Assembly (NCBI RefSeq): GCF_004664715.2
Contig: NC_051084.1
Span: 63,539,334-63,603,333, forward strand
From: Peromyscus leucopus
Lineage: Eukaryota; Chordata; Mammalia; Rodentia; Cricetidae
Length of the DNA: 64,000 nucleotides
Direction of reading: 5' to 3'
Under the pieces are notes generated by a model. It was given only the letters and a program-made list of their open reading frames with translations. It did no database searches and was not told where the DNA came from. This document shows, one piece after another, positions 51,755 through 54,270 of the stretch; positions within the stretch are counted from its first letter, which is position 1; each line of letters starts with the position of its first letter. The position numbers and the translations under genes are program-made.

Positions 51755-52007
51755 GCAAATATAGCATAGGGTATGCAAGAATTTAAATCTGTATTTACCC
51801 TAAAAGCTACTCAATATTCAGGTCTACTAATTTGAGAACAGTGGGAAATAGTAAGAGTGATGTGTATATATCGTACAGAAAAATGTGCGCACAGAAATAA
51901 AAATGAGTATCTTGTGTGGTGGTATTGTGTTCACCAAAATATTGTGTACTCTAATAAAAATATCTGGGGTCAGAGAACAGACAGCCACTAGATACAAAGG
52001 CTAGAAA

Positions 52008-52144
52008 ATGGTGGCACTCACACCTTTAATCCTAGCATCCCAGAGATAGAAATCCCTCTGGATCTCTGTGAGTTCAAGGCCACATTGGAAATAGCTAAGC
52101 ATGGTGACACGCCTTTAATCCCAGAAAGCCAGCCTTTAATCCCA
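52008..52144 (+). mobile_element. B1-like SINE segments embedded in the LTR U3
   Basis: 'aaatggtggcactcacacct', 'ctctgtgagttcaaggccac' and then a second B1-like start, 'aagcatggtgacacgccttt', lie in U3 of both LTRs. They were therefore part of the element before it inserted here. Confidence 0.75.
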
Positions 52145-52170
52145 GGGAGTGGTGGTAGAAAGCAGGAAGA

Positions 52171-52178
52171 TATATAAG
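52171..52178 (+). promoter_or_regulatory. TATA box of the 5' LTR
   Basis: TATATAAG, repeated at 54002-54009 in the 3' LTR, 257 bp from the LTR start, a usual U3 position. It would drive the element's transcript through the Tgfbr1 piece. No expression data. Confidence 0.6.
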
Positions 52179-52441
52179 GCGTGAGGGTGAGAAACTAGAA
52201 GCATTTTGGCTGGTTAGGCATTTGGCTGGTTAAGCTTCAGGCTTTCGAGCAGCAGTTCAGCTGAGAGCCATTGGGATGAGGACTCAGAGGCCTCCAGTCG
52301 GAGGAGACAAGACCAGATGAGGATCCGGTGAGGTGAGATAGCTGTGGCTTGTCCTGTCTCTCTGATCTACCAGCATGGACCCCAATAACTCGGCTCAGGT
52401 TTGATTTTATTAATAAGAACTTTTAAGATTCATGCTACATC

Positions 52442-52459
52442 TGGCGCCCAACGTTCGTG
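52442..52459 (+). promoter_or_regulatory. Primer binding site, tRNA-Lys type
   Basis: TGGCGCCCAACGTTCGTG starts two bases after the 5' LTR. The first 12-13 bases match the lysine-tRNA primer site of betaretrovirus-like elements; the last five do not. Confidence 0.85.
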
Positions 52460-52527
52460 TTACGAATTCATGAAAAAGCTGTTTGCCTGTGGCCTTGTGA
52501 GCCCCAGCTCAGGCCCAAGCTACACAC

Positions 52528-52606
52528 AGGCGGTTGTGGTGGCGCACACCAGTAGGATTTGCTGAAGGAGACAGAGGCAGTAGGATCCTGAGTTTGAGCC
52601 CGCCTA
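52528..52606 (+). mobile_element. B1-like module in the element's leader
   Basis: 'aggcggttgtggtggcgcac', 'gagacagaggcagtaggatc' and 'ctgagtttgagcc' follow B1 order with small gaps. It lies between the primer site and the Tgfbr1-derived part. An alternative is that part of it derives from the GC-rich Tgfbr1 5' UTR. Confidence 0.5.
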
Positions 52607-52635
52607 GGAGGCTTGGGAGAAGCTTTGGCCTGGAC

Positions 52636-52992
52636 TGAGCCACAAACAGTGGTGGGACCATGGAAGCAGTGGCTACTGCTCCACGTTGCCAGCTCCTTCT
52701 CATCATGTTGGTGACTGCGGTGATGCTGCTACCTGGGCCGAAGGGTTTACTGCTGCTGGTTCAGAGAAGAATTGCCAGGACCATCATGTTACAAGAAAGC
52801 ATCGGCAAAGGTCAGTTTGGAAAAGCTTGGCAAGACAAATGGTGGGGAAAAATTGCTGTGAAGATTTTCTGTTCTAGGGAAGAATGTTTATGGTTCCGAG
52901 AGACAGACATTTATCAGACTATGATTGCTCCAAACCACAGAGGAGGCAAAAAAAAAAAAAAAAAGTCTGCAGGAAACCATGACCATGCCTAA
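52636..52992 (+). pseudogene. Tgfbr1: Captured, internally deleted Tgfbr1 (TGF-beta receptor I) fragment
   Basis: Cellular TGFBR1 (ALK5) is a membrane Ser/Thr kinase that phosphorylates SMAD2/3. Here an ATG at 52660 in a strong context (gggaccATGg), preceded by receptor 5' UTR-like bases from 52636, opens a 110-codon frame. Residues 1-28 resemble the receptor signal peptide (MEAVATAPRCQLLL). Residues about 30-87 match the end of the GS region and the kinase N-lobe: LLLLVQRRIARTI, glycine loop GKGQFG (49-54 region), lysine in IAVKIF (residue 68), FRETDIYQT. Residues 89-94 (IAPNHR) come from the activation segment. The ectodomain, transmembrane segment and the catalytic loop with HRD and DFG-type residues are absent, so it cannot be an active kinase. 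Introns are absent. Several receptor arginines read Gln, Cys or Trp, as CpG decay would give. The frame ends past an A17 run. A secreted or cytosolic fragment is conceivable but unproven. Confidence 0.88.
52949..52964 (+). repeat. A-run at the distal edge of the Tgfbr1 piece
   Basis: A run of about 17 A follows 'gaggaggc'. It may be expanded from the receptor's own A-rich codons after IAPNHR or mark a junction to the next segment. It makes the downstream frame length-dependent. Confidence 0.8.
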
Positions 52993-53322
52993 CAGTGACT
53001 TTGACTTTGAAATCTTCAAAAAGATGACAGGATTCTACAACGATGATTCCACATGGACTATGATAAAGCCATTAAGCCGATTAACACCATGGAAAAATCG
53101 ACTTTGGACTACAAACTGATCAGAACAATTTCGAGAGGACTAGTTGAGAAGATTCAGCCTGACAGACTACTCAAACAAGGACTTGAAACAAGCCCTGAAC
53201 TTTCCTTTTATGCAGAGACTGGACAAATGATACAGGACTTGACAATTAACCCAAAAATTTTCTTTTCAAGATTCCCTAAAGATATCTTCACCCTAGAAAG
53301 CAAAAAGAAAAAGAGAATATAG
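52965..53322 (+). other. Open segment of unknown origin inside the young element
   Basis: Two overlapping frames cover it: one ends at 53119 (conceptual DFDFEIFKKMTGFYNDDSTW), the other runs 53053-53322 (89 codons, including LDYKLIRTISRGLVEKIQPD and a basic C-terminus). I do not recognise either as retroviral or cellular. The change of frame suggests either a decayed single frame or chance. Confidence 0.35.
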
Positions 53323-53331
53323 ATATGAGAT

Positions 53332-53522
53332 AGATCATCGAATCTACTCTGAGAAAAAAAAGATAAAGAAATAATAGGATAAATAGGTAGATCATTGAAT
53401 CTACACTGAAGAAAAAGGGGAAGATATAAAAATGACAAAAGGTAGACTACTGAATCTATTATGAAAAGAAAAAAAAGAATATGGATATGATAAGATAAAA
53501 AGGGAGATTATGGAATCTACTT
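53332..53522 (+). repeat. Four-copy A-rich tandem repeat, 55-61 bp
   Basis: The motif aga(t/c)(c)at(c/t)gaatcta recurs at 53332, 53389, 53444 and 53505, each followed by an A/G-rich spacer. It lies between the open segment and the 3' part of the element. Confidence 0.8.
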
Positions 53523-53752
53523 TTAAAAAGGAACTACTTGTTTTAAATAAGATAAGTAATGAAAATTTTTTGGTCTGAGTTTATCAGATGTTACTGGACT
53601 GGACATTGTTAATATATATAATGGAGTTTTCATATGAATCTGTCATGTTAATGGACTAGACATCATTAATGTAAGTTTTGGCTGTATATATTGTATATAC
53701 TTATTGGATAGTTTTTTCTTGTATTAGTTATAAGCTTTTTTTAATTTTAGAC

Positions 53753-53766
53753 AAAAAGAGAGGAGA
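53753..53766 (+). promoter_or_regulatory. Polypurine tract of the young element
   Basis: AAAAAGAGAGGAGA directly precedes the TG of the 3' LTR. Confidence 0.9.
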
Positions 53767-54270
53767 TGTGGTGGTATTGTGTTCACCAAAATATTGTGTA
53801 CTCTAATAAAAATATCTGGGGTCAGAGAACAGACAGCCACTAGATACAAAGGCTAGAAAATGGTGGCACTCACACCTTTAATCCTAGCATCCCAGAGATA
53901 GAAATCCCTCTGGATCTCTGTGAGTTCAAGGCCACATTGGAAATAGCCAAGCATGGTGACACGCCTTTAATCCCAGGGAGTGGTGGTAGAAAGCAGGAAG
54001 ATATATAAGGCGTGAGGGTGAGAAACTAGAAGCATTTTGGCTGGTTAGGCATTTGGCTGGTTAAGCTTCAGGCTTTCGAGCAGCAGTTCAGCTGAGAGCC
54101 ATTGGGATGAGGACTCAGAGGCCTCCAGTCGGAGGAGACAAGACCAGATGAGGATCCGGTGAGGTGAGATAGCTGTGGCTTGTCCTGTCTCTCTGATCTA
54201 CCAGCATGGACCCCAATAACTCGGCTCAGGTTTGATTTTATTAATAAGAACTTTTAAGATTCATGCTACA
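53767..54270 (+). repeat. 3' LTR of the Tgfbr1-bearing element (504 bp)
   Basis: Identical to the 5' LTR apart from one base and the absence of the 21-bp stretch; it ends GCTACA next to the second atcttg target copy. Confidence 0.95.

Follow-up and report, generated by a model that had tools for sequence, protein, structure and literature searches.

How does part of a host signalling receptor come to lie, without its introns, between the long terminal repeats (LTRs) of a retroelement, and by what route did it enter? A 64,000-nt stretch of the Peromyscus leucopus genome (contig NC_051084.1, positions 63,539,334 to 63,603,333), hereafter the window, raises this question at its positions 51915-54270, where a young non-autonomous LTR element carries a cDNA piece of Tgfbr1, the TGF-beta receptor I gene. 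We are highly confident that a non-autonomous betaretrovirus-like LTR family, whose interior is a transduced host cDNA, inserted here recently. The most likely route of entry for the Tgfbr1 piece is reverse transcription of a spliced Tgfbr1-provirus fusion RNA, because in one long copy from the same genome (locus L080) the 3' joint falls on the acceptor to which viral relatives splice. Our main new result is this host exon joint at an acceptor shared with viral relatives.

The frame 52660-52944 matches the TGFBR1 kinase (PDB 1py5) with an E value of 1.6e-22 over frame residues 27-90, and its exons are joined, as an original prediction made from the letters of the window had proposed in describing an intronless Tgfbr1-like stretch; the lack of a significant alignment over 52660-52945, which would have refuted it, is not what we see. 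That prediction had put forward 52442-53766 for alignment to Tgfbr1 mRNA; the Tgfbr1 piece does lie inside these limits, but it occupies only approximately 52608-52965, and 53121-53766 is retroelement backbone. Read from 52660, the frame passes from the signal peptide (exon 1) to the start of exon 4 and then jumps to the end of exon 6, in what we take to be the exon numbering of Tgfbr1. The parent gene in the same genome has its exon 1 near C2:58433738, located by a pattern allowing two mismatches (the exact pattern found nothing, and the exon was not found in the interval C2:58437000-58446000), and exons 2-7 plus a later exon were matched too. Parent exon 1 ends ...GGAGG/GTGAG and exon 4 starts /GTTTACC (slashes mark borders and joints throughout), and the elements fuse these two ends. 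The protein of exons 2-3, used as a query, returned six matches, two in the parent and four at 41-47% identity that look like paralogues. No Tgfbr1 3' untranslated region (UTR) is present in the captured piece, which ends at an exon boundary within coding sequence. The left end of its 5'UTR part was judged by eye, and the B1-like piece of the element's leader was not seen in the 700 nt upstream of parent exon 1.

Longer copies preserve more of the captured transcript. A kinase-domain search of the genome (2.475 Gb) gave 1851 candidates, 127 of which were scored; many begin where exon 4 begins and continue without introns roughly to the exon 6 end, and others are partial. We inspected seven of the better long copies, choosing L075 for its absence of stops. 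All seven align to joined exons 4+5+6 (556 nt) at 86.5-92.5% identity and without introns, and six retain the exon 1/exon 4 joint, which is lost in L078; the older long copies carry spliced exons 1-4-5-6. The alignment of L080 spans 1-556, with TTTTCTGCAGTGAACC directly after the last base of exon 6, giving the joint CACTAAAAG/TTTTCTGCAGTGAACC where the parent reads CACTAAAAG/GTACAC at its donor. As in a transducing retrovirus, spliced host cDNA lies within an LTR unit and its 3' joint has the form of splicing into a provirus, unmutated in one of the seven long copies. The exon 6 end CACTAAAAG has otherwise drifted to A runs or long CA runs whose length varies by copy (window 52948-52964, L075-L079), and the window run comprises 17 A followed by GTCTGCAGG.

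The base at which exon 6 ends is a splice junction in relatives of the element. A genome search for TTTTCTGCAGKGAACCATGAC together with its 12 preceding bases gave 650 places at up to one mismatch (control 0), and the 100 matches listed include several recurring 12-mers with an abrupt change at the acceptor base; one of these 100, L080, has the unmutated Tgfbr1 exon 6 end before the acceptor. Eight representatives of the other upstream kinds were retrieved (L094-L101). Two of them, L094 and L095, contain a 100-nt GT...AG intron, ...CTATCAG/GTAACTAGG ...AAAATGTTTAAG/TTTTCTGCAG, with the borders CAG/GTAACT...TTTAAG/, and precisely those 100 nt are missing from L096 and L097; L100 and L101 show the ending GTATCAG/TTTTCTGCAG. 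A second donor, unspliced as AAAAAGA/GTAAATTGG (AAAAAGA/GTAAAT) in L095, L096, L097, L100 and L101, is spliced to the same acceptor base in L098 and L099. Because the spliced and unspliced forms among L094-L101 share that base, the point at which Tgfbr1 exon 6 joins is a 3' splice site used by the retroelements themselves. Pfam placed Gag_p24 above its cut-off upstream of this site in L094 and L099, and an integrase match in L098 fell below cut-off.

The original prediction of a non-autonomous family mobilised through the germline is borne out by counts across the genome. A 52-mer across the exon 4/exon 6 junction occurs at 951 places with up to three mismatches (reversed control 0), and a leader 25-mer at 865 places (control 0). 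A 24-mer across the exon 1/exon 4 joint occurs at 729 places with up to two mismatches (control 10), 9-10 of the 100 matches listed being the parent exon or look-alikes. On contig C1, 18 of 27 exact leader sites lie within 600 bp of a Tgfbr1 junction among the matches listed, and for the other nine no such junction is among those matches. Of the 40 loci that best match the window, 23 have complete LTR pairs; an exact 6-bp target duplication flanks 18 of these, one has a single mismatch, and four have more than one mismatch, three of them apparently shifted by one base. The LTRs of the 23 pairs diverge by 0.0057 at the median and by no more than 0.0745, with 16 pairs below 0.01. Because complete LTR pairs, target duplications and junction counts recur at many places, the LTR unit and its cargo have moved as a whole many times. 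The LTRs of the 23 pairs measure 490-559 nt and those of mys elements 343 bp, a comparison of length with no mys sequence in it. Of the other 17 loci, L014 and L020 are mosaics: a 5' LTR from a different family precedes a Tgfbr1-bearing element, and the two meet at the primer site.

Integrase- and gag-bearing elements are homologous to the family, which places it in the betaretrovirus-like (ERVK) superfamily, with a weak direct match; the genus label is the one that we presume to apply. The 3' backbone of the window element aligns to L075 at 65.6% identity over 909 nt, and its part 53121-53766 aligns in pieces, at 64-73% identity, to a second LTR element of the window. This older element lies on the minus strand at 46230-49500, with LTRs of about 330 bp that are 76% alike and a 3' half related to the Tgfbr1-bearing family; its LTR length is reminiscent of mys. 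It matches L075 at 71% over 235 nt and the DNA downstream of the integrase gene in L071 at 64% over 819 nt, and L075 matches L071 at 58.7% over 571 nt. The Pfam domains of L071 are rve and IN_DBD_C.

After CTACA, 617 places in the genome show a full tRNA-Lys primer site, exact in 44 of them, and the eight exact places retrieved all match another LTR type at 80-94%; Gag_p24 was found in all three of these relatives scanned with Pfam. One relative, L091, runs into the same backbone without Tgfbr1. Among the matches listed, the full site at C3:29226816 lies, by eye, about 500 bp from the exon 4/exon 6 junction in the same orientation, and at least one Tgfbr1 copy thus seems to have a full primer site. 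Beside the primer site, L093 (611-686) and L091 (near 608) hold an apparent reverse complement of an entire tRNA-Lys, as though copying of the primer had run well beyond the usual 18 nt; ARAGORN detected tRNA-Lys in L093 and not in L091. Of the integrase loci examined, L053 has an antisense family member nearby and L064 an LTR match only.

These observations can be ordered into a proposed origin. An ancestral provirus would have sat inside Tgfbr1, in the same orientation as the gene and, in the simplest case, in intron 6, and a Tgfbr1 transcript without exons 2-3 would have been spliced from exon 6 to the proviral 3' splice site and have ended in the 3' LTR. Helper enzymes would then have reverse transcribed this fusion RNA, the nascent strand switching near the Tgfbr1 5' end to a primer-site leader and so yielding a complete LTR-to-LTR element. 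The element would have multiplied to about a thousand copies, one branch losing the internal stretch from exon 4 to exon 6. The host exon junctions, the common acceptor, the number of copies and their movement as units are observed; where the donor provirus lay, the strand switch and the helper are inferred. Several results weigh against parts of this account. The unmutated 3' joint is found in only one of seven long copies (L080), five have CA or A runs before TCTGCAG, and the joint is lost in L081; the 5' joint is located approximately, not to the base. Present Tgfbr1 intron 6 contains no provirus remnant, only short B1-like matches. Direct similarity between the window backbone and L071 is confined to 62 nt (E 6e-4), so that the two are connected by way of L075 and the second window element, and the window LTR is in none of the eight retrieved relatives with a full primer site. 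The original prediction had the element copied by the enzymes of another provirus; gag- and integrase-bearing relatives do exist, but a coding helper with the window LTR was not found among 30 integrase loci, of 150 scored. The 40 loci, as best matches to the window, are biased towards young copies, and 17 of them yielded no complete LTR pair (the part not found being the 5' LTR end in six, the 5' LTR start in six, the 3' LTR end in four and the purine tract in one).

Other routes of entry would leave some of the same marks. A processed pseudogene of Tgfbr1, made by a long interspersed element (LINE), inserted in an LTR element and later multiplied, would account for intronless cDNA with an A run at 52948-52964; that run, however, is a drifted exon end (CACTAAAAG in L080) rather than a tail behind a 3'UTR, and the piece ends in coding sequence at an exon border, exactly on the acceptor of the relatives. 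Nor was a target duplication of its own, which would have refuted the original prediction, seen around the piece: at the four loci with both flanks anchored (the window, L076, L077 and L078, with L075, L079, L080 and L081 excluded) the flanks share at most 4-5 nt, chance level by shuffles; a separate repeat scan was sensitive to repeats of at least 15 nt only. Contradicted by L080 and L094-L099, the pseudogene origin is very improbable. The coincidence of the last exon base with the first base past the acceptor of the relatives also argues against template switching, in which reverse transcriptase would have made the 3' joint by passing from Tgfbr1 mRNA to genomic viral RNA without splicing. 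Some captured genes are usually explained by switching, the unmutated joint is present in a single copy, and the later exon 4-to-exon 6 deletion has, by eye, 2-3 nt of microhomology at its breakpoint; we nevertheless consider it quite improbable as the source of the 3' joint. Recombination of DNA, by which a piece of the Tgfbr1 locus itself would have moved into the element, draws on the mosaic 5' LTRs of L014 and L020, which suggest that elements recombine, yet the captured exons stand end to end with no introns, which excludes such a transfer unless its donor was a spliced retrocopy, and its probability is close to negligible.

Whether the cargo does anything is a separate matter from how it arrived. 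Selection could be keeping the captured frame for a small protein that acts in TGF-beta signalling: its first 94 codons are open in 36 of 37 in-register copies (three of the 40 loci left out), NCBI entries named 'TGF-beta receptor type-1-like' exist in P. leucopus and P. californicus, and L075 is free of nonsense changes. Variants among the 37 copies, however, stand at 39:10 nonsynonymous to synonymous, which fits sites of 220:62, and nonsense changes occur in six of the seven long copies. Compared with the parent and pooled, the long copies have 252 nonsynonymous changes over 2931 sites and 134 synonymous over 867 sites, a ratio of nonsynonymous to synonymous change per site (pN/pS) of 0.56 (0.47-0.74 in single copies). 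A ratio near one half would be expected for a neutral copy decaying beside a constrained gene, because the parent contributes mostly synonymous changes. Selection on the frame is thus improbable, and the captured cargo decays near-neutrally, a passenger in whose codons we see no coding constraint. The stop-free long copy L075 (C9:35050232-35050789) corresponds to P0122, the P. leucopus entry 'TGF-beta receptor type-1-like, partial', with 188 of 188 tested 20-residue words in one L075 frame, and a comparable entry exists for P. californicus; at least one database record of that name is therefore an element copy.

Protein entries outside P. leucopus bear on the age of the capture. The window frame has 119 relatives, 116 of them entries from Scotinomys teguina, a species that may be over-represented through the annotation of its genome, which would make absence elsewhere uninformative. 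By eye, 25 of 26 relatives inspected have the exon 1-exon 4 fusion, and several Scotinomys entries have the exon 4-to-exon 6 deletion in common and several continue into the same backbone; in the Neotoma lepida and P. californicus entries the fusion is accompanied by exons 5 and 6, complete or in part. All three genera, Scotinomys, Neotoma and Peromyscus, belong to the Neotominae. The original prediction of a young element holds for this insertion but not for the capture, which these entries suggest to be old and common to several Neotominae. At a rodent substitution rate near 5e-9 per site per year, a typical young insertion would, as a rough figure, date to much less than 1 million years ago and the capture, equally roughly, to around 15 million years ago.

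The structure of the window element itself (Table 1) agrees with the near-identical LTRs, polypurine tract and perfect 6-bp duplication originally described. The LTRs have TG...CA termini and differ by one substitution and one 21-nt indel, and ATCTTG stands on both sides. The predicted primer site is present at 52442, with a partial fit of 13 of 18 nt to what we take to be the tRNA-Lys sequence. As predicted, no viral gene is recognisable: of 35 open reading frames (ORFs) of at least 25 amino acids listed around the element, 11 were scanned and none exceeded a Pfam cut-off, whether for gag, pro, pol, env or any other family, and none was assigned to the frame 52660-52944. No homologues were found for an 89-amino-acid frame at 53053-53322, a stretch that is mostly backbone; Rfam matched nothing within 51000-55500, and an IMG/VR scan with an LTR 24-mer gave 0 matches.

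Table 1. Features of the Tgfbr1-bearing element, in window positions
Feature	Positions	Strand	Basis or remark
Target-site duplication ATCTTG, left copy	51909..51914		Read directly and by repeat comparison
5' LTR, 525 nt	51915..52439	+	Repeat of 53767-54270
Primer-binding site region	52442..52459	+	tRNA-Lys fit over the first 13 nt but not the final 5
Leader including a piece presumably like a B1 short interspersed element (SINE)	52532..52607	+	
Tgfbr1 5'UTR (~52 nt) and coding part of exon 1; ATG at 52660	52608..52744	+	Alignment with parent exon 1 (L085)
Tgfbr1 exon 4 (231 nt), first ~180 nt, fused with exon 1 at exon ends	52745..52924	+	
End of Tgfbr1 exon 6, after later internal deletion	52925..52965	+	Breakpoint ambiguous by 2-3 nt
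Open frame of 110 amino acids across captured piece	52660..52992	+	
Start of retroelement 3' exon (here TCTGCAGG...; TTTTCTGCAGTGAACC behind the family splice acceptor in older copies)	52966..53300	+	
Retroelement 3' backbone	53121..53752	+	Homology in pieces to second window LTR element, and via that and L075 to L071 downstream of integrase
Polypurine tract AAAAAGAGAGGAGA	53753..53766	+	
3' LTR, 504 nt	53767..54270	+	
Target-site duplication ATCTTG, right copy	54271..54276		Read directly and by repeat comparison

Tumour viruses have supplied most of the arguments about how retroviruses acquire host genes. In acute transforming retroviruses, spliced host cDNA is enclosed by the LTR, primer site and polypurine tract, and a helper is needed; the Tgfbr1 family differs from them in being a germline family of high copy number, with a truncated receptor piece and no sign of a selected product. 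Endogenous retroviruses (ERVs) offer a closer comparison: those of crocodilians captured KIT-ligand and nectin3 mRNA, and the captured frames are reported to be under purifying selection, with no viral domain lost in the KIT-ligand case (Chong and colleagues, PMC4299795). As described there, the crocodilian captures likewise brought host mRNA into endogenous retroviruses before species split; unlike them, the Tgfbr1 family is near-neutral, numbers about a thousand copies, has a visible splice joint and, in the window copy, has no recognisable viral gene.

Deer mice have abundant non-autonomous mysTR-related ERVK subfamilies in which the internal part is replaced by unrelated sequence (Gozashti and colleagues, PMC10089650). 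As portrayed in section 7 of that article, they resemble the Tgfbr1 family in belonging to Peromyscus, lacking viral genes and being homologous to coding relatives chiefly in the segment between the end of pro-pol and the 3' LTR, a likeness of description and not of compared sequences. That section gives no source for the replaced part, and the main text contains neither 'tgf' nor 'captur' (PMC10089650). The ETn elements of house mouse are likewise non-autonomous and mobilised by coding relatives, but no host receptor cDNA is mentioned for them in section 7 (PMC10089650). The literature searched, which did not extend to subscription papers, including those on mys, contained no paper with both Tgfbr1 and Peromyscus and no high-copy mammalian germline family with such a splice fossil. 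Retroviral capture of host mRNA as such is already known.

Our findings add how large such a family is, the order of its spliced exons, its junction with a viral acceptor, the near-neutral decay of its cargo and its presence in other Neotominae. Host splice joints survive here in an old germline capture, as does, in one copy, the unmutated joint to a viral acceptor; viral relatives in both unspliced and spliced form occur in that genome too and provide a built-in control. The family also suggests a testable origin for the hitherto unexplained internal sequences of the abundant deer-mouse non-autonomous elements, as section 7 describes them (PMC10089650). We suggest, tentatively and as a possibility we think rather doubtful, that the viral 3' splice site acts as a standing gene trap, at which proviruses of this superfamily inserted in genes would join host exons to the one acceptor, and that the deer-mouse non-autonomous subfamilies with internal sequence of no known source arose repeatedly through such splicing of host exons; if this is true, Tgfbr1 would be one readable case of a general mechanism by which non-autonomous elements are born.

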